Assembly (NCBI GenBank): GCA_903861125.1
Contig: CAIOTF010000038.1
Location: 1 to 64,000 of the forward strand
Reading direction: 5' to 3'
Origin: an uncultured Ignavibacteriota bacterium
GTDB taxonomy: Bacteria > Bacteroidota > Ignavibacteria > UBA10030 > UBA8401
Length of the DNA: 64,000 bases
Position 1 is the first letter of the stretch. Every line of letters begins with the position of its first letter. The notes below the pieces were generated by a model. That model ran no database searches. It was not told the origin of the DNA and saw only the letters and a program-made list of their open reading frames with translations. Both the position numbers and the translations under genes were made by a program. This document shows, one piece after another, positions 4,500 to 35,745 of this stretch.

Positions 4500-7463
4500 T
4501 TATTTTAACGGTAATATTTTTTTAAGGAAATTTCCTGTATAGGAATGTGAAATCCTGGCAAGTTCTTCCGGCGTGCCCGTTGCAATCACTTTCCCTCCAT
4601 TTTCGCCGCCTCCCGGTCCAAGATCGATGACATGGTCCGCACATTTGATCACATCCAGATTATGTTCGATCACAAGTACAGAATTCCCCGTCTCGAGCAG
4701 CGCGGTGAAACATTTCAGTAATTTTGTGATGTCGTCAAAATGAAGTCCGGTCGTCGGTTCATCAAAAATGAAGAGTGTGTGCCCATCTTTTTTCTCGACA
4801 AGGTGTGTGGCAAGTTTTATCCGCTGTGCTTCGCCGCCCGAGAGTGTCGTAGCTGCCTGACCGAGACGAAGGTATCCAAGACCGACCTGGTCGAGCACTT
4901 CAAGTTTTTGTGCGACCTTATGTCCGTCCGGATATTTGTTGAAAAAACCGATGGCCTCTTCAACGGTCAATCCGAGAATGTCGTCGACATTCTTTCCGTT
5001 CCACCGTACTTCAAGAGCTTCCTTCTTATACCGTTTGCCGTTGCACGATTCGCAGGTCAAATACAGGTCCGCCATGAACTGCATCTCTACTTTTTGCAAA
5101 CCGTCCCCTTCGCACACGTCGCATCGTCCGCCGGGAACATTGAACGAGAAGAATCCCGGTTGATACCCGCGCAATTTTGCTGCCGCCGTTTTTGAGAGCA
5201 ACTCTCTGATGCCATCGAACACGCCGACATATGTAACCGGATTCGAACGGGGCGAACGTCCAATAGGCGATTGGTCGACCAATTCAAGATGCTGGATCTT
5301 CTCCCATCCCTTGATATCGTGTACTCCGCTCAACCGGCCGATGTGTCCGTTCAAACGCTTCTTAATCCCCTCACCGATAATGTCGTGAACAAGCGTACTT
5401 TTTCCCGAGCCGCTGACGCCGGTAACACAAACGAACATTCCCAATGGAATTTCTACATCAATATTCTGAAGATTGTGCTGGAATGCATTAAGAATAAGAA
5501 TGGAATTATTCGGCAGTGCCGGTGTCTTTTGTGAGACAGACATTTTTTTTCGGCGTACTTTCGGAACAGGGATATTCAATTTTCCGGACAAATATTTTCC
5601 GGTCAGCGAGTTTTCACTTGCAACCGCCTCTGCATATGTTCCCTGGAACATGATCTCGCCGCCGCGTTCGCCCGCTTTCGGTCCGATGTCGATTATCTGA
5701 TCGGCTGATTTCATCATATCCGCATCATGTTCCACGACAAGAACGGTATTCCCGACGTCGCGCAGCCGTTTCAGAATATTGATGAGCCGGTCATTATCAA
5801 GCGGATGCAAGCCGATGCTCGGCTCGTCGAGAACATAGATCGAACCAACCAACGATGAACCTATTGATGTTGCGAGATTAATCCGCTGCGATTCTCCTCC
5901 AGAGAGTGAGTTTGATAAACGGTCCAGCGTTAAATATCCGACTCCTACATCCACAAGATATCGCAGACGCTTTCTGATCTCCTCCAGAATTCTTTTCCCT
6001 ATGCTCAACTCAAAATCCGTCAGTTTGAGATTCATAAAGAATTCATCGGCCCGTTCGATATTCATTGCCGCGACCTCGCCCACATGCTTCCCTCCGATGA
6101 TCACATTCAATGCTTCTTTCCGCAGCCGGGCTCCATGACAAACATCGCACATCGTATATCCGCGGTACCGGCTGAGCATCACCCGGTATTGGATCTTGTA
6201 CGCTTTCCGTTCCACCATCTTGAAGAAGCCATTGATACCGTCAAATTCTTTTCCATATCCGTTCATCACGATGTTCAATTGCTGTTCCGTCAATTTCCGG
6301 AATGGAACATTCATGGGAACGCCGGCTTCATACGCAATGCGCGAAAGATCGCGAAGATTTTCCTGAAACTTCGGCGTTGTCCAGGGCATCACCGCCCCTT
6401 CTTTCAGTGTCTTCTCCAGATCAGGAACAACAAGTTCCATATCGATCCCGACCGAACGGCCGAATCCCTGGCATTTCGGACATGCGCCGATGGGAGAATT
6501 AAATGCGAATAAATGCGGTTCCGGTTCTTCGAATCTGATAGAATCGATTGGACATTCAAAATGCTGACTGAACGGAATGATCTCCTTCGTTTCAACATTC
6601 AGAACAGATGCGTAGCCATCCCCTTCCACAAATGCAGTCTGAATCGAATCGGCAAGCCGGTTCTGACTTTGAATCTCATCTTTCCGGAGAACATAACGAT
6701 CTACAAGAATGAAGATGTTCTTCTTTTCATCGGATTGAGAGTGATTCTTTTTGGCGGGAACGGTCGGTTTGACTCCTTGAACATTCTTTTTTACCGTTCG
6801 TTTCGGGACCGAGAGCAGTTCCTTAATCTTTTCCGATTGCGCGGGATCATTCAGGTCTATCATTTCACCTTTCAGCACAATGCGGAAGAACCCGCGCTTT
6901 TTCAGTGTTTCCAGTTCCTCTGCAATGGTCCTGTCGGCGTGATCGTGCATCGGGAACATCACAAAGAACTTGCCCCCTTCTTTCTCCTGGCTGATTCTGT
7001 CAACAACATTCTGCACGGAATCTTTTTTGATTTCACGTCCGCATACCGGACAGATCGTTTTGCCGACGCGTGCGTACAGCAATCGGAGATAGTCATAGAT
7101 CTCCGTAGTGGTGGCAACCGTCGATCTGGGATTGCGAGTATTGGTCCTCTGCTCGATGGAAATGGCCGGCGACATTCCCTGAATAACATCCACATCCGGC
7201 TTGTCCATTCGTTCCAGAAATTGACGCGCATATGCCGAAAGTGATTCCACATAGCGCCGCTGACCTTCAGCGTAAATCGTATCGAATGCGAGGGACGATT
7301 TACCCGAACCGCTCACGCCGGTGATCACCACAAGTTTATTGCGCGGAATCTCGATGGAAATGTTCTTCAGATTATGGACCCGCGCTCCTTTAATGATAAG
7401 AGGAGACCGTGTGGAATGAAGTTGGGGAGATTTTGTTTTCGATTGTACTTTAGTTTTTCCCAT
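4500..7463 (-). CDS. uvrA: Excinuclease ABC subunit A (UvrA)
   Basis: Damage-recognition ATPase of nucleotide excision repair, acting as a dimer with UvrB. Two ABC modules are visible: N-terminal Walker [10 protein letters not shown], signature [12 protein letters not shown] and [12 protein letters not shown]-terminal [21 protein letters not shown] and [10 protein letters not shown]. Zinc modules include ACPKC, CDVCHG, CDVCEG and CESC; in the first one the expected CxxC reads CPID, losing a ligand, which I recall in Bacteroidota-type UvrA. An Asn/Lys-rich insert around residues 220-245 makes it slightly long (about 987 aa). ATG 7463 is chosen over TTG 7469. It starts 8 nt after vapC and is probably cotranscribed with vapBC. 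Confidence 0.97.
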
Positions 7464-7471
7464 ACCCAATA

Positions 7472-7870
7472 TTAATTCTGTTTAAGTGTTTTTAAGCCGA
7501 GATGCTTTTCAAACGGCAAAAAATCCTTGTCGTTATGCAACAGGGTAAAACCGTTTTCTATGCAAAAAGTTGCTATAACAATATCTATCGTCTTGCGTAT
7601 CGTAAGTCCTTTTTTCCGAAGCAATCTGAAATTTTTAGCACTTCTCAGAGCAATTGATTCCCCGCAAATTTCATAACAGGGAAAAGATTGAAGAATCGAT
7701 TTTGCCTTGGCAAAGTCTTTGTCACTTTTGAATCCTTGCAGCACTTCCGCAAGAACGTAGTCACCAATGATAACGATTTTTTTCCCCAGCAAATCGTCTA
7801 ACACATCAACTTGCCATGTCTTCACATTATTGAAATAGTCAATCAATACAGACGAATCGACAAAGATCAC
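7472..7870 (-). CDS. vapC: VapC-type PIN-domain toxin (ribonuclease)
   Basis: 132 aa PIN-domain protein, usual length for a VapC toxin. The acidic active-site residues are in place: D5 (FVDSSVLID), E42 (LAEVLQGF), D96 (TIDIVIATFC) and D114 (HNDKDF). Such toxins cleave tRNA or rRNA and are held inactive by VapB. The start codon is GTG at 7870, overlapping the vapB stop in the sequence GTGA, so translation is coupled. Only 8 nt separate its stop from the uvrA ATG. The RNA target cannot be predicted from sequence alone. Confidence 0.92.
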   Translation of the reverse strand: MIFVDSSVLIDYFNNVKTWQVDVLDDLLGKKIVIIGDYVLAEVLQGFKSDKDFAKAKSILQSFPCYEICGESIALRSAKNFRLLRKKGLTIRKTIDIVIATFCIENGFTLLHNDKDFLPFEKHLGLKTLKQN

Positions 7871-26994: not shown

Positions 26995-28128
26995 ATGCAT
27001 CGTTCAATAGCACTTTTTGTTATCACAATATTCATAACGCTAACGGCTTCTTCATTGCCGAGATTTGCTACGCGTCAGGGAGCCAAATGTCAAGCATGCC
27101 ACATCAACCCTACCGGTAAAGGAATGCGCAACGCATTCGGTTCAACGTACGGCAGGGAAGAATTGACCATGGCAACATACAAAGAGCAAACCGATATTGA
27201 AGACTACTCCCAGGCGTTGAACAATTTCGTCACAATCGGTATGGACTACCGGACCTTGTACTATTACCGTGAGCAAACCTCAACATCGAGTTTCTTTCAG
27301 ATGCAGGGAGATCTTTTTCTCGATCTCCGTCTTAATAAGAAATTCCGGATCTATTTCAACAAAGGATTGTACAACGGATTTGAAGTGTTTGGTCTTGCAA
27401 AAGTTCTTCCAATGGATGGATATCTTAAAATTGGAAACTTCATTCCCGCGTACGGCCTGAAGATGGATGACCACAATCTATTCATCCGCGGCGGAGCTTT
27501 CTTTCCGGCCAATCCTGACATTGCCGGATACCCAGGCGGTCTCGGATTTGGGCAAGGGGCTGAGGATACTGGCGTAGAAATTGGTTTCAATCCAAGCATT
27601 TTCTCAGTGAACATCGGCCTCTTCAACGGACGGAAAGGCGGATTGACAGGAACAGCAGGAACGAAAACAAAAGCGGTAGCGGTGCGTGCAGATGCAAACA
27701 TACAAACCGATATCTTGAATTTTAATATCGGGGGTTCTCTTTACAACCTTCCTACCCCGGGTGGTCCGGGAAAGACGCAGATCGCAGGAGCATTCGGCGT
27801 TTTCTCATTGTATAACAATCTGACACTTCAGGGTGAATACGACATTTTAACAACATATAATGCTACTAAGAACAAAGAAGTAACGGGTAATGTGCTATAT
27901 ACAGAATTGAATTATCTGCTCTCAAGCGGCATCGATCTGAAACTCGGTTATGAATTCTACGATCCGAATTCCGATCTGAAAGATGGCAGTGTTTCACGAT
28001 ATACGATCGGAGCCGAGTTCTTCCCTCTTACAGGAGTAGAAGTCCGTCCGCTCTACCGCATCAATCAGGAAAAACCGACCGAACGTTCAAACAATGAGAT
28101 ACAGGTTCTATTCCATTTCTTTCTATAA
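26995..28128 (+). CDS. Outer-membrane beta-barrel with an N-terminal c-type heme motif
   Basis: 377 aa. Signal peptide (about 1-20), then at 32-36 a single CxxCH heme motif (CQACH) in the segment RQGAKCQACHINPTGKGMRN, then from about 75 to the end alternating hydrophobic-polar strands with aromatic turns (FRIYFNKGLYNGFEVF, LTLQGEYDILTTYN, GIDLKLGYEFYDPN, IQVLFHFFL) typical of an outer-membrane barrel of about 12-16 strands. No second heme motif is seen. It resembles porins joined to a cytochrome. It heads an operon with two further c-type cytochromes and has a consensus-like RBS. A role in moving electrons or substrate across the outer membrane is inferred. Confidence 0.7.
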   Translation: MHRSIALFVITIFITLTASSLPRFATRQGAKCQACHINPTGKGMRNAFGSTYGREELTMATYKEQTDIEDYSQALNNFVTIGMDYRTLYYYREQTSTSSFFQMQGDLFLDLRLNKKFRIYFNKGLYNGFEVFGLAKVLPMDGYLKIGNFIPAYGLKMDDHNLFIRGGAFFPANPDIAGYPGGLGFGQGAEDTGVEIGFNPSIFSVNIGLFNGRKGGLTGTAGTKTKAVAVRADANIQTDILNFNIGGSLYNLPTPGGPGKTQIAGAFGVFSLYNNLTLQGEYDILTTYNATKNKEVTGNVLYTELNYLLSSGIDLKLGYEFYDPNSDLKDGSVSRYTIGAEFFPLTGVEVRPLYRINQEKPTERSNNEIQVLFHFFL

Positions 28129-28140
28129 AGGATTCATAGT

Positions 28141-28530
28141 ATGATTTTTAAATTTCTACTCACAGTCTCACTTTTACTGATCCTTTTCATTCCGGCATGC
28201 ACGGATCAGGGTAATCCGCTTACTCCTGCAGCACCGGCAGCAACCGAAGTAAAATTCTCTTCGGATATTTCTCCGCTGCTTGCTTCGAAAGGATGCGTTG
28301 GCTGCCACGGCAGCAACGGAGGATTGAATGTCGGTACGGTTGCTTCACTGCTCACAGGCGGCAATCACGGTCCGGCTATTGTTGCAGGGAAAGCCGACAG
28401 CAGTAACCTCGTGCTAAAATTAAAAGGAACTCCCTTCGGTTCGCGAATGCCGCAAGGCGGCCCGTATCTTACAGCAGCAGAAATTAAATTATTTGAAGAC
28501 TGGATCAACGCCGGTGCAAAAAACAATTAA
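28141..28530 (+). CDS. Lipoprotein c-type cytochrome (one heme)
   Basis: 129 aa. A signal peptide ends in a lipobox (FIPACTD, Cys20), so the protein is lipid-anchored in the periplasm or on the outer membrane. One heme motif CVGCH (52-56). The segment DISPLLASKGCVGCHG and the later GSRMPQGGPYLTAAEIKLFEDWINAGA are the pattern of the Planctomycete-type cytochrome C domain; Met of SRMPQ is the likely sixth heme ligand. It follows the barrel gene by 12 bp and is clearly coexpressed. Probable electron carrier. Confidence 0.85.
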   Translation: MIFKFLLTVSLLLILFIPACTDQGNPLTPAAPAATEVKFSSDISPLLASKGCVGCHGSNGGLNVGTVASLLTGGNHGPAIVAGKADSSNLVLKLKGTPFGSRMPQGGPYLTAAEIKLFEDWINAGAKNN

Positions 28531-28544
28531 AAAGGGATGACACA

Positions 28545-28910
28545 ATGAAAAAACTACTTATTGCAATCATTATTATTGCGGGCATTATGTCTGCTCAGGA
28601 AAAGAAGGGGAAAATCTCCTTCAAAGATGATGTCATGCCGATATTTCAAAAAAAATGCATGAACTGTCATAATACCGAAGATGAGAGTCCGAGCGGATTT
28701 TATTTGGACAACTATGCTGAATTGATGAAGGGCGACAGCCGGAATGGTCCGGTTGTAATACCCAAAAAAGGGGAAGAAAGTATTCTGATTTTGAAATTGC
28801 GCGGAACAGCAACATTCGGCAAACAAATGCCCCGGGGTAAAATAGTTCTTGATGCTAACATAATCGACATGATTTCGAAATGGATCGATCAAGGCGCGAA
28901 GAATAATTAA
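28545..28910 (+). CDS. Periplasmic c-type cytochrome (one heme)
   Basis: 121 aa. Signal peptide (1-17), not lipidated. One heme motif CMNCH (38-42) in VMPIFQKKCMNCHN, and a Met ligand candidate in GKQMPRGK, with IDMISKWIDQGAKNN at the C-terminus, the same Planctomycete-type domain as the preceding gene. The two are probably an old tandem duplication that kept the heme fold, one anchored and one soluble. It ends the operon; a terminator follows. Confidence 0.85.
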   Translation: MKKLLIAIIIIAGIMSAQEKKGKISFKDDVMPIFQKKCMNCHNTEDESPSGFYLDNYAELMKGDSRNGPVVIPKKGEESILILKLRGTATFGKQMPRGKIVLDANIIDMISKWIDQGAKNN

Positions 28911-31620: not shown

Positions 31621-31641
31621 CAGACATCACCCGAAAAATAA

Positions 31642-31664
31642 AAGTCCCGCACGAGGCGGGACTT
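31642..31664 (-). terminator. Terminator of the kamA operon
   Basis: A hairpin with 9 bp stem AAGTCCCGC/GCGGGACTT (31642-31650 and 31656-31664) and a 5 nt loop, with a T-rich run following it on the minus strand. It lies 7 bp after the kamA stop and closes the four-gene unit. Confidence 0.65.
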
Positions 31665-31670
31665 CATATG

Positions 31671-32831
31671 TTATTCTGCAGGAACTTCCACTTTTTCTTT
31701 CTTGTAAGTCTTTTTTCGCTGTACGCTCTTCCGTTTCCGCAGATATTTCTTTTCGATCTGCTGTTGATCGGCGGAGACTTTTTTCTCCTCCTCTTCAACA
31801 TCCGGATATTCATAGATCTCATACTTGTAATTCCGCATGATGATCTTATTGCCGTTTCGGCCGAGCACATACTGCGGAAGGATCGGTATCTTGCCGCCGC
31901 CGCCGGGAGCATCGATAACATAAGCCGGTATTGCAAGTCCGGAAGTATGTCCACGCAATTTGTCCATAATCTCAAGACCAACACTGACCGGTGTTCTGAA
32001 ATGATTCGCACCTTTGGTAATATCCGCTTGATAAAGATAGTACGGACGAACACGGATCGCAAGCAGTTTGCGCATTAATTCCAGCATCACATCGGGATCG
32101 TCGTTCACCCCTTTCATCAGCACAGCCTGGTTCCCCACAGGAATACCGGCATCGGCGAGCATTTCACAGGCACGTTTCGCTTCAGGAGTAATCTCCCACG
32201 GGTGATTAAAATGCGTGTTGATATACAATGGATGATATTTTTTCAGCATATTCACCAATGCCGGTGTAATGCGCTGCGGAAGAACGCACGGCATCTTTGT
32301 TCCGAGGCGAATAATCTCCACATGCGGTATTGCACGCAGACCGGAAATGATCTTCTCCAGCATCACATCAGTCAGCATCAGCGGATCGCCACCGGATAGA
32401 ATAACGTCACGGATTTCGGGATGCGCAGCAATATAATCCAATCCGGTCTGGATATATTTCATGCTGATCTTGCCGGAATCTCCCACCTTGCGCTTACGGG
32501 TGCAGAACCGGCAATACATGGAGCATTGACTTGTTGTTAAGAAAAGCACTCTATCCGGATAGCGGTGCGTGATGCTCGGGACTGGGCTATGTGCTTCTTC
32601 ATTAAGAGGATCTTCTGAAAAACCATCTTCTTCCAGTTCTTTTGCATCGGGAACGCATTGAAGCCAGATCGGATCGCCGGGATAGCGTATCAAACTTAAA
32701 TAATATGGATTGATACGAATATGAAACAGCGTATTAAGTTTTTCGGCAAGTTCTTTATCAAAGCCGAATCTGTCCACAAGATCCTTACCGCTGTCAACGC
32801 TTGCTCTTAGCATTTCCTGCCAGAGTTCCAT
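31671..32831 (-). CDS. kamA: Lysine 2,3-aminomutase-like radical SAM enzyme
   Basis: 386 aa. CxxxCxxC is at C103, C107, C110 (QCSMYCRFC), for the iron-sulfur cluster and SAM. PLP lysine is K314 in DAPGGGGK. Both acidic residues that hold the substrate side-chain amine in lysine 2,3-aminomutase are kept: D270 (YQADIT) and D307 (IDAPGG); in glutamate 2,3-aminomutase these positions differ (Lys and Asn). L-lysine to beta-lysine is therefore the predicted reaction. Residues 343-386 are a Glu/Lys-rich charged tail not needed for catalysis. Last gene of a four-gene unit with ATP-grasp ligases and a GNAT, ending in a terminator. EpmB function is less likely, given the layout. Confidence 0.85.
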   Translation of the reverse strand: MELWQEMLRASVDSGKDLVDRFGFDKELAEKLNTLFHIRINPYYLSLIRYPGDPIWLQCVPDAKELEEDGFSEDPLNEEAHSPVPSITHRYPDRVLFLTTSQCSMYCRFCTRKRKVGDSGKISMKYIQTGLDYIAAHPEIRDVILSGGDPLMLTDVMLEKIISGLRAIPHVEIIRLGTKMPCVLPQRITPALVNMLKKYHPLYINTHFNHPWEITPEAKRACEMLADAGIPVGNQAVLMKGVNDDPDVMLELMRKLLAIRVRPYYLYQADITKGANHFRTPVSVGLEIMDKLRGHTSGLAIPAYVIDAPGGGGKIPILPQYVLGRNGNKIIMRNYKYEIYEYPDVEEEEKKVSADQQQIEKKYLRKRKSVQRKKTYKKEKVEVPAE

Positions 32832-32902
32832 AGAATAGTGCCTTCTGTTGTTAATAAAAATGAATTTGTAGAACCAAACTTTTCTTTATTGCCTTTTGCT
32901 GC

Positions 32903-33376
32903 CTAAAGATATTTCCCGTAGATGACCAGGTCATCGTTCGGTTTATAATATTCTTTGATATGTGCAAGTTTTTGAAACTTCTTGCGCTCATAAAACTGAC
33001 GCGTGTTGTCATACTTTGATGTTGATGAGGTTTCCGCAATCAACAACCGTCCGCCGCGCCCCTTTAAAACATCTTCGGTATAATTCAACAGCACAGTCCC
33101 GATTCCTTTGCTCTGAGCCGCCGGATCCACCGCAATCCAATAGAGGTCATACGTTGCAACCGTTGCCGGTGTCGGACCAATACAAATATACCCCAGTGCT
33201 TTCCCTTCGCCGTCAACATACGAGAACAACTCGTAATCCTTTTGGTCCGGATCATTCAGGTAGATCTCCATCAATTCCACCGCAATGTCGATCTCTTCCT
33301 GACTGAACACTTCTGTTGCAATGACGATCGAACGCAAGGTTTCGAAATCCTGCCGCTCTGTTTTACGTACTTCCAT
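32903..33376 (-). CDS. GNAT-family N-acetyltransferase
   Basis: 157 aa with the acetyl-CoA-binding motif A: DLYWIAVDPAAQSKGIGTVLL (the Q-x-x-G-x-G/A segment QSKGIG), then NTRQFYERKKF, motif B. Single GNAT fold with no added domain. It overlaps the start of the downstream end of an ATP-grasp gene by 14 bp, so it is translated with it. The substrate is unknown; by operon context it may modify a beta-lysine-containing product. The AblB enzyme that acetylates beta-lysine in osmolyte synthesis is a longer GNAT as I recall it, so identity with AblB is not assumed. Confidence 0.8.
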   Translation of the reverse strand: MEVRKTERQDFETLRSIVIATEVFSQEEIDIAVELMEIYLNDPDQKDYELFSYVDGEGKALGYICIGPTPATVATYDLYWIAVDPAAQSKGIGTVLLNYTEDVLKGRGGRLLIAETSSTSKYDNTRQFYERKKFQKLAHIKEYYKPNDDLVIYGKYL

Positions 33377-34478
33377 TTTTCTTCTTTTCTTTGCGTCGCT
33401 CTACGGCAAAACCGACAATCCTATTGATCGCATCGGCATATGACATACCGTATGTCCGGACTGAACGGAAATACCCGGCATCATGGGAGAGATCGGGATT
33501 CGGATTCACTTCCAGCACGAACGGTTTCAATGTCTTTGAAAGACGGATATCTACACGGGCATAATCCCTGCATCCCATCAATTTATAGGCACGAAGAGCA
33601 ACAGCCTTCACTTCATGTTCAACCTCGGCCGGCAATGGCGCCGGACAGATCCCCTTTGTTCCTTCAAACTCTTTTGTGCCGTCCATCCATTTTGCATCGT
33701 ATGTAACTATTTTCGGATAATCATCCGGCAGACCGGAAAAATCGATTTCCGAAATCGGCAGAACCAGCGGCGGATCATTTCCGATAACAGCAACATTCAA
33801 CTCACGCCCTTCAATATACTCTTCAACCAGCGCCGCCTCTTGAAATTTATTGATGATGAACTCCACTCGTTCTTTCAACTCAGCAAACGAATTAACGATC
33901 GATTTGTTATCGATCCCGACACTGGCATCTTCCGCGCTTGGCTTTACGATGATCGGGAATGATAACTTGAAATTTTCGGGCGTTAAACCGGCAACATCAT
34001 GCACCAGCATGAACTCTGCCGTCGGGATTCCGTTGTGCAGCATGATCTCCTTCGTACGCGCCTTATTCAGGCATGTTCCCAATGTCCATGGACCGGAACC
34101 GGTATAGGAAATTCCCATGAGTTCATAAATTCCCGCAACATGCATCTCATGGATCGCGTTATCACCAAGGCTTTCCACCATATTAAAAATTACATCCGGC
34201 TGCATTGCCTTGATATAGCCAAGAAAACGATCGAGATCATCCGACATATTAAAAATGGATGTTTCATATCCAATGGTGCGCAGCGCAGTCTGAATATCTT
34301 CCTTCTCTTCAATCACACCAACTTCCGACAAGTCTATTTTCCCATCCGATTTTGCCGCAGAAATCCATACGCCGCTGTGTCCGTGATCCACTCCGGCATT
34401 GAATGCAAATTCGCGACCGGTATGTGTTTCAATAGTCGGTTCGTTATAAATAATTGCAATGTGAATTGGTTCCGTCAT
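33363..34478 (-). CDS. ATP-grasp ligase, D-Ala-D-Ala ligase-like (second)
   Basis: 371 aa of the ATP-grasp superfamily. Visible: GISYTGSGPWTLGTCLNKART (substrate-binding part), PIIVKPSAEDASVGIDNKS (ATP grip), VEEYIEGRELNVAVIG and RVDIRLSKTLKPFVLEVNPNPD, which supply the Lys, Glu, Asp and Asn residues for Mg-ATP. Such enzymes join an amine to a carboxylate with ATP. It is unlike a housekeeping Ddl, because it is paired with a second, related ligase only 2 bp upstream. It overlaps the GNAT gene by 14 bp. Confidence 0.82.
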   Translation of the reverse strand: MTEPIHIAIIYNEPTIETHTGREFAFNAGVDHGHSGVWISAAKSDGKIDLSEVGVIEEKEDIQTALRTIGYETSIFNMSDDLDRFLGYIKAMQPDVIFNMVESLGDNAIHEMHVAGIYELMGISYTGSGPWTLGTCLNKARTKEIMLHNGIPTAEFMLVHDVAGLTPENFKLSFPIIVKPSAEDASVGIDNKSIVNSFAELKERVEFIINKFQEAALVEEYIEGRELNVAVIGNDPPLVLPISEIDFSGLPDDYPKIVTYDAKWMDGTKEFEGTKGICPAPLPAEVEHEVKAVALRAYKLMGCRDYARVDIRLSKTLKPFVLEVNPNPDLSHDAGYFRSVRTYGMSYADAINRIVGFAVERRKEKKKNGST

Positions 34479-34480
34479 AA

Positions 34481-35551
34481 TTATAGATTGTGTCGTTTCA
34501 TACCGGCATCAAGCACCGCATTCAGCATTTCGTTATAATTCATTCCTGCCATTCTTGCGGCTTTAGGAAAACATGAATTATCCTCTATTTTAGGAAGTAT
34601 TCCGGGCAAAGGATTGATCTCGATAATGTTCGGTCTGCCATTTTTGTCAAGCCGGACATCGATTCTGGACCAGTCGCGGCACCGAAGTGCGTTATAGGTA
34701 TTTCTGCAAAGATCTTCTATAGCCGTTTTAAGATTATGATCAACCTGCGCGGGACATTCAAAGATTTCAAGAGGATTTGAGGACTGATCCCATATCCATT
34801 TCGCTTCGTACGAATAAATGGGATTTACTCCGCTCGGCAGCGAATCGAATTTTATTTCGACAATCGGAAGAACCTTAAGATCATTCCCGTTGCCAAGCAT
34901 TGCTACCGTGAACTCACGTCCCGGCAAAAACTCTTCCACAAGCGCCGGCTGACCGTACTCTTCAATCACTTTCGTCACCTGCTCCGTCAGTTCCTTAACG
35001 GAATGGACGAGCGACTTGTCGAAGATCCCTTTACTGGAACCTTCGAAAAGTGGTTTGACCATGGCGGGAACGGGAAAATCGAGTAAGCGAAGTTCTGACA
35101 GTGATGAAATAACGGCGAATTTTGGATTGGCGATATTATAATACGACAGGATCTCTTTTGCGCGGGATTTATCAAGACAAATGCCAAGCGTCAGCGGATC
35201 GGAACCGGTATATGGTATGTTCAGCATCTCGAGCATCGCCGGTATCTGTGCTTCACGTGATGCGCCGAAACGGCCTTCCGCAATATTGAATACAATGTCC
35301 GGCTTCGATGATTTGAGCGATGCAAATGCATTTTCATCGGCTTCAATAAGAGTAACGGAATGGCGAAGGGAGAGGGCATCTCGCACGGCGTGGATAGTTT
35401 CAATAGTATCCCACTCCGCAAAAGCGTCTGCGCTTGATGTGACTTGTATTTGTGTGTGAGTCGTTTGTTGCGTTTGACTCGAAGGTTGAAGAACACTTGC
35501 TGTTGAATCGTTCTCTTCCTTCTTCACGTTGTAGACTAATGCTACATCCAT
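34481..35551 (-). CDS. ATP-grasp ligase, D-Ala-D-Ala ligase-like (first)
   Basis: 356 aa, a paralogue of the next gene: NIPYTGSDPLTLGICLDKSRA, AMVKPLFEGSSKGIFDKS, VEEFLPGREFTVAMLGNG and DVRLDKNGRPNIIEINPLPG. All catalytic positions look intact. The N-terminal 40 residues, with a Ser/Thr/Gln-rich stretch, are extra. First full gene after a good promoter at 35.7 kb; no Shine-Dalgarno is seen before its ATG. Paired ligases suggest two successive peptide-bond-forming steps. It is not obviously the housekeeping ddl, which should lie near murC/ftsZ. Confidence 0.82.
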   Translation of the reverse strand: MDVALVYNVKKEENDSTASVLQPSSQTQQTTHTQIQVTSSADAFAEWDTIETIHAVRDALSLRHSVTLIEADENAFASLKSSKPDIVFNIAEGRFGASREAQIPAMLEMLNIPYTGSDPLTLGICLDKSRAKEILSYYNIANPKFAVISSLSELRLLDFPVPAMVKPLFEGSSKGIFDKSLVHSVKELTEQVTKVIEEYGQPALVEEFLPGREFTVAMLGNGNDLKVLPIVEIKFDSLPSGVNPIYSYEAKWIWDQSSNPLEIFECPAQVDHNLKTAIEDLCRNTYNALRCRDWSRIDVRLDKNGRPNIIEINPLPGILPKIEDNSCFPKAARMAGMNYNEMLNAVLDAGMKRHNL

Positions 35552-35561
35552 TCAGAAGAGT

Positions 35562-35580
35562 ACCAAAATTATATTTTGGT
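35562..35580 (-). promoter_or_regulatory. Inverted repeat just before the first ATP-grasp gene
   Basis: A perfect repeat of 8 bp arms with a 3 bp centre (ACCAAAAT-TAT-ATTTTGGT) ends 11 bp before the ATG at 35551 and overlaps the stop of a small reading frame. In the transcript it forms a hairpin over the start region, or it is an operator. Confidence 0.35.
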
Positions 35581-35708
35581 TACCTTTCGCAGTTAGTTTG
35601 AAATTTTTTTCCATCATCCGCACACGCTGCATTAATTTTCTCTTCAGTGATGATGGTCGGTCGATTTTGTATCAAAGAACGGTTGAACAGTCGTTTTGAC
35701 ACCCTCAT
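35580..35708 (-). CDS. Possible 42 aa leader or small protein ahead of the ATP-grasp genes
   Basis: A frame from ATG 35708 to TAA 35580-35582 reads MRVSKRLFNRSLIQNRPTII, then TEEKINAACADDGKK, ending with a second Cys (TNCER). It lies between the promoter and the first ligase gene, and the palindrome follows its stop at once. The ATG is only about 3 nt from the predicted start of transcription, so the message would be nearly leaderless, or the true start site is earlier. It may be a regulatory leader peptide, or chance. I cannot exclude that it is a peptide substrate of the ligases. Low confidence. Confidence 0.25.
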   Translation of the reverse strand: MRVSKRLFNRSLIQNRPTIITEEKINAACADDGKKFQTNCER

Positions 35709-35717
35709 TTCTATACT

Positions 35718-35745
35718 AATATACGGAATTATACAGAGTTGTCAA
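35718..35745 (-). promoter_or_regulatory. Promoter of the ATP-grasp/GNAT/kamA operon
   Basis: Minus-strand -35 TTGACA (35740-35745), consensus, a 16 bp spacer and -10 TATATT (35718-35723). Transcription would begin near 35711, giving a leader of about 160 nt before the first ligase gene. Among the clearest promoters in the window. Confidence 0.65.

Follow-up and report, generated by a model that had tools for sequence, protein, structure and literature searches.

Two described solute routes are among the systems closest to the locus considered here. Acetyl-beta-lysine is described as an osmolyte or solute of methanogens (PMC1224877) and is reported from green sulfur bacteria as well (PMC4685198), and Ngg is presented as an enzyme that N-acetylates glutamine and joins a second glutamine to it, en route to the osmolyte N-acetylglutaminylglutamine amide (NAGGN; PMC8070244). 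The locus itself is a four-gene operon in a stretch of 64,000 nucleotides, hereafter the window (contig CAIOTF010000038.1, positions 1 to 64,000), from an uncultured Ignavibacteriota bacterium. It encodes two ATP-grasp ligases related to D-alanine-D-alanine ligase (Ddl), here called A1 and A2, a GNAT N-acetyltransferase, and a KamA-family lysine 2,3-aminomutase-like radical S-adenosylmethionine enzyme. The same four genes recur in other genomes of the phylum, either as an operon or dispersed, and they may encode a pathway to a small N-acetylated beta-lysyl peptide.

The operon resembles each of the known systems in part. Like the AblA/AblB pathway to N-epsilon-acetyl-beta-lysine, it has both an enzyme of the lysine 2,3-aminomutase family and an acetyltransferase, but no AblB over the cut-off is found, the 157-residue GNAT is nearest to the structure 2R7H, two extra ligases are encoded, and KamA scores under the AblA cut-off. 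The NAGGN pathway, which uses Ngg and AsnO, likewise pairs N-acetylation with a peptide bond in a small dipeptide solute (PMC8070244); here, however, these activities would belong to different proteins, an enzyme for a beta-amino acid accompanies them, and the operon has no asparagine-synthase gene. Ddl and Van ligases share their fold and ATP/Mg residues with A1 and A2, which differ from them by replaced substrate-pocket residues and fall short of the curated Ddl cut-offs.

All four genes lie on the minus strand, in the order A1 (356 aa; 34481..35551), A2 (371 aa; 33363..34478), GNAT (157 aa; 32903..33376) and KamA (386 aa; 31671..32831). A1 and A2 are separated by 2 bp, A2 and GNAT overlap by 14 bp, and 71 bp lie between GNAT and KamA, which confirms the open reading frames and spacings given in the first-pass annotation of this DNA. 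Its domain assignments are borne out by Pfam matches to PF07478 (Dala_Dala_lig_C) in both ligases, PF00583 in the GNAT, and Radical_SAM and LAM_C in KamA. The promoter and hairpin terminator proposed to flank the operon were both recovered: a sigma-70-like promoter, TTGACA-16-TATATT, agreeing at 11 of 12 positions (35718..35745, minus strand), and an intrinsic terminator with a 10-pair stem and a T-rich tail just past the KamA stop (31641..31665, minus strand). The numbers of such sites in the operon region are not above chance, with 14 promoter-like sites against 12.0 (standard deviation 3.5) in shuffled sequence and five terminator-like sites against 6.7 (standard deviation 2.7); these two are the top scorers of their type within the region. 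The promoter block, TTGACA...TATATTAGTA, is kept in six of seven aligned rows, comprising the window and five near relatives, and is absent from that position in the seventh, the more distant L044. The terminator stem is kept, with a varying loop, in all six rows from the window and the near relatives. By its conserved signals and its spacing, A1-A2-GNAT-KamA is one transcription unit.

Conservation was assessed by searching a phylum sample of 296 genomes with each of the four proteins, with a threshold of E 1e-40 for KamA. The counts cover this phylum; a scan of genome contigs with a single query sequence reached close relatives only, the closest named ones being metagenome bins that bear the titles Ignavibacteriae, Bacteroidetes or Bacteroidota. 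Matches to A1 and to the GNAT each occur in 53 genomes and KamA in 101, and A1, GNAT and strong KamA occur together in 52, every one of which also has an A2 match (A2 read by eye). The departures from this pattern are few: G047 is the sole genome with A1 and A2 but without GNAT and KamA, its A2 running off the end of contig C53, and G088, with a weak match of 82 bits, is the sole genome with a GNAT but without A1. Conservation of gene order had been set as a check that could refute the first-pass annotation. The order is kept in 41 of the 52 full-set genomes, with A1, GNAT and KamA on the same strand within 6 kb, and A2 lies between A1 and GNAT in all 33 loci read by tblastn with four genes present. 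Two further sets are cut by contig ends (G196 and G247), and the remaining nine genomes, from three families (f37, f22 and f49), carry all four genes at separate loci. In the class as a whole, A1 occurs in 236 of 391 genomes, and in 206 of the 337 better ones.

The dispersed genes appear to be the same ones as those of the operon. In the tree, dispersed A1 groups with operon A1 (support 98/99) for four of the nine dispersed genomes, the other five being outside the tree, and dispersed A2-like proteins, those of four of the nine included, fall in a clade of A2 and A3 (100/97). Because the genes are retained together in these nine genomes though they are not neighbours, a shared function is likely, and the four genes are likely bound by function beyond mere adjacency.

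Both ligases are predicted to have the Ddl fold over nearly their full length. The AF2 model of A1 (mean pLDDT 88) matches DdlB with Z 33.8 and an rmsd of 2.2 over 292 aligned residues, and that of A2 (mean pLDDT 90) matches LmDdl2 with Z 34.1 and an rmsd of 2.7 over 318. Other ATP-grasp families are absent among the matches listed by VIA-align and Foldseek, which does not by itself exclude such families. We compared 30 A1 and 28 A2 chosen sequences with the genome's own Ddl, using what we take to be the E. coli Ddl residue numbers and residue roles and leaving aside the poorly aligned E15 position. The equivalents of K144, R255, D257 and N272 are kept in all 30 A1 and all 28 A2 sequences, and that of E270 is Glu in 30/30 A1 and 24/28 A2, the other four A2 having Asp. 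The substrate pocket is altered, with Y216 replaced by Trp and H63 by Glu in all 58 sequences, and the G276 position separates the two ligases, being Gly in 30/30 A1 and Asp in 28/28 A2. In the tree, A2 forms a clade apart from A1. Neither protein reaches the cut-off of 243 for the curated Ddl model NF002378 (A1, 189.4; A2, 159.3). A1 and A2 are therefore likely to be working ligases that are not Ddl and are unlike each other, and a pair of distinct pockets is in keeping with a pair of distinct joining steps. A housekeeping Ddl role for either was ruled out by the changed pocket residues and by a separate Ddl on contig C42, which matches at 257.8 bits; the earlier view of two non-housekeeping ligases, neither of them the only Ddl of the genome, is thus upheld.

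KamA matches the lysine 2,3-aminomutase structure 2A5H at 413.5 bits. Opposite its D270 and D307 in the alignment with 2A5H stand two Asp residues, which we take to be D293 and D330; an Asp pair of this type holds the side-chain amine of lysine and selects lysine as substrate. The CxxxCxxC cluster motif is also present in the window KamA, so that the catalytic features of a lysine 2,3-aminomutase, the motif and the two Asp, are complete. Both Asp occur in all 35 operon-type and all five dispersed KamA rows and in all four rows of other KamA (L109-L112), which include those of G075 and G063. KamA misses the EpmB cut-off (242.5 against 369.3 bits), and it lies further below the cut-offs for glutamate 2,3-aminomutase (430.5 against 650) and arginine 2,3-aminomutase (346.3 against 600) than below that for AblA. 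Lysine is thus the likeliest, if not a settled, substrate on these grounds. The first-pass claim for KamA stands as regards the Asp pair, both members of which are aligned and conserved, while its beta-lysine product stays a prediction from residues and homology. At its C-terminus (window 31671-31800), KamA carries a Lys/Arg/Glu-rich tail of ~40 residues past the phmmer-aligned part of 2A5H.

The GNAT profile finds 2R7H at 153.8 bits in a match that spans 150 of its 158 positions, with the next match at 34.9 bits. This closest solved relative was deposited as a putative D-alanine N-acetyltransferase. A DxYWI motif and a TS pair are invariant across 20 aligned GNAT sequences, and the GNAT is therefore a constrained enzyme. 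It falls below the AblB cut-off. RimI was considered and rejected, the GNAT scoring 45.5 bits against a cut-off of 86.4; no protein of this genome reaches that cut-off, and the top score, 53.1 bits, belongs to a different gene. Relatives of the GNAT at 30-40% identity occur in nine plasmid records, and no ATP-grasp or KamA annotation stands beside them in four annotated neighbourhoods, a fifth carrying no annotation.

These observations can be assembled into a pathway in which every substrate is inferred, as are the step order, the product and its role. KamA would convert L-lysine to beta-lysine by shifting the amino group from the alpha to the beta carbon. A1 and A2, with their different substrate pockets, would then make two successive ATP-driven amide bonds, with beta-lysine taking part in at least one of them, and the GNAT would add an acetyl group to a free amine. 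The product would be a small beta-lysyl peptide, a di- or tripeptide, bearing an N-acetyl group. The four enzymes would act in the cytosol and the metabolite would be kept in the cell, perhaps as a compatible solute. An in-cell metabolite of this kind seems the likeliest role because conservation within the class is wide, the operon contains neither transporter nor carrier genes, and acetyl-beta-lysine and NAGGN provide precedents. We give this reading as a whole, from beta-lysine through peptide and acetylation to an in-cell metabolite such as a compatible solute, about an even chance of being right; the pathway interpretation in the first-pass annotation is to that extent partly supported. 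A broader proposal, in which this is a hitherto undescribed core pathway of the class that makes a metabolite of a new kind, an N-acetylated beta-lysine peptide, uses at least one ATP-grasp ligase that takes a beta-amino acid, and blends the acetyl-beta-lysine and NAGGN strategies, is more tentative and falls somewhat short of even.

The enzymes are of known kinds; their combination and product appear new. Among the matches listed in searches of the open-licence literature, some of which were directed at adjacent subjects, no paper concerns this four-gene set; the sole match of one search deals with a different aminomutase. A survey of ATP-grasp amidoligase neighbourhoods by Iyer and colleagues in 2009 may mention a similar set. 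If the proposed pathway is correct, the majority of sampled genomes of this environmental class (the 236 of 391 with A1) would make a beta-lysine peptide not yet observed. Two ligase families whose scores mark them as relatives of D-Ala-D-Ala ligase would then perform another job. Ligases of the ATP-grasp type that take a beta-amino acid would in that case be useful tools for beta-peptide synthesis.

Several observations weigh against the proposed pathway. The sequence gives no substrate for A1, A2 or the GNAT, and the product may be destined for the wall or for a protein. KamA falls below the curated AblA equivalog cut-off (479.9 against 525.4 bits), which makes lysine a less certain substrate; the KamA of G075 (L109) scores 755.9 bits with the same model. 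No link to salt is apparent, as a search for known RNA families across the window returned one tRNA only and no riboswitch, and no regulator gene is among the four genes of the operon. The presence of KamA is not by itself a sign of the pathway, since 49 of the 101 genomes with a KamA match have no A1; 155 of the 391 class genomes have no A1 match. In the dispersed genomes the orthology of the GNAT is judged from identity, at 40-44%. The Fisher values for co-occurrence ignore shared descent, and the nine dispersed genomes could also have kept the genes for unrelated reasons, each with a function of its own.

The simplest alternative is that the GNAT acetylates free beta-lysine, as in the acetyl-beta-lysine solute route. 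Acetylation of beta-lysine is known chemistry (PMC1224877), and the route exists in the phylum: in two relatives of family f24, G075 and G063, which we guess to be green sulfur bacteria ('Chlorobia'), AblB scores over its cut-off, at 345 and 344 bits, within ~2 kb of KamA. By comparison, a search of 14 genomes with the operon or the dispersed set, this one included, gave no AblB over the cut-off; two weak matches lay below it, the operon GNAT of G004 scoring 23 bits and a match in G267 19.4 bits. The GNAT is a protein of 157 aa that falls with 2R7H, and the strict co-occurrence of A1 and A2 would be left unexplained, so that we regard this route as unlikely. A cell-wall role, in which beta-lysine or a beta-lysyl peptide is attached by A1 and A2 to peptidoglycan or a peptidoglycan precursor and is acetylated by the GNAT, draws on the kinship of both ligases with Ddl and on the deposited name of 2R7H. 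It draws also on a presumed murI (by eye) that adjoins the GNAT or lies one gene from it in five of the six dispersed loci, out of nine, that were readable. However, this murI neighbourhood was noted only among dispersed genomes, four of the five belonging to a single family, and could simply reflect synteny; the operon has no Mur gene and the ligase pockets are not Ddl-like. We consider a wall product decidedly unlikely.

In other bacteria the KamA-family enzyme EpmB provides beta-lysine for elongation factor P (EF-P), and the ATP-grasp RimK modifies proteins, so that the ligases could replace EpmA in the beta-lysylation of EF-P or act on some other protein. EpmA does not score over its cut-off in any of the 24 genomes searched; each has sub-cut-off matches, the best at 186-256 bits on frames of at least 500 aa, which we take for lysyl-tRNA synthetase. 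As KamA lies below the EpmB cut-off too, the operon set is unlike EpmAB on both counts. The EF-P tip residue was examined as a correlate of the operon and discarded: it is Lys or Asn among genomes with the genes and likewise among those without, and Asn in this genome. EF-P is thus an unlikely target, another protein could still be one, and we judge protein modification as a whole very improbable. With AblB over the cut-off in none of 14 genomes and no EpmA over the cut-off, the earlier statement that the known uses of beta-lysine do not match this set is supported. It is conceivable, finally, that KamA serves in lysine degradation, that the ligases and the GNAT do something else, and that their linkage is incidental, lysine 2,3-aminomutase being catabolic in clostridia. 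Against this, the order is kept in 41 genomes and the set in nine dispersed ones, and the chance that the linkage is incidental seems very small. Lysine 5,6-aminomutase gave no match in 16 genomes, with all 14 control genomes equally silent.

Related pairings of ATP-grasp ligases and KamA homologues occur elsewhere. A separate KamA group of the phylum, guessed to be 'Rhodothermia-type', has Gln in place of the first Asp in all 13 sequences (L121 included), and a Ddl-like ATP-grasp lies near it in nine of the 13 loci (L099, L100, L113-L115, L118 and L120-L122), possibly as a parallel pathway with another substrate. On a Thioflavicoccus mobilis plasmid (L178, 3557-9038), an A1-like ATP-grasp stands beside a KamA on the opposite strand that retains both Asp. 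The ligase sits behind genes annotated as SbnA and diaminobutyrate transaminase, an ornithine cyclodeaminase is annotated too, and the whole looks like a small diamino-acid peptide cluster. Both kinds of locus resemble the operon in having a Ddl-like ATP-grasp near a KamA homologue, but in the loci read they show one ligase each and no match to the GNAT, and the Gln-type lacks the first Asp. The Thioflavicoccus adjacency would be an independent pairing and to that extent supports the proposed beta-lysyl peptide pathway. The Thioflavicoccus and rhizobial plasmid ligases are 33-39% identical to A1, with an unsure position in the tree. No KamA is annotated near the rhizobial plasmid ligases in the two neighbourhoods read; a Rhizobium plasmid KamA adjoins a gene whose annotation is biotin-carboxylase-like and whose product could be an ATP-grasp, and a Deinococcus plasmid KamA has no ATP-grasp annotated beside it.

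Further ATP-grasp arrangements were seen in passing. A lone ATP-grasp stands beside a protein family, c7, in nine loci (L058-L060, L063 and L079-L083; e.g. L079:7733-8806, 6787-7623). These ligases fall inside the A2 clade where placed on the tree, and the one tested member of c7 scores right at the Pfam peptidase C39 cut-off. In L096:6089-8011 and L097:5996-7939, a single open frame combines a methyltransferase with a Ddl-like ATP-grasp (Pfam on L096 only). Elsewhere in the window, three adjacent proteins (26995-28128, 28141-28530 and 28545-28910) each carry a CxxCH haem-like motif.

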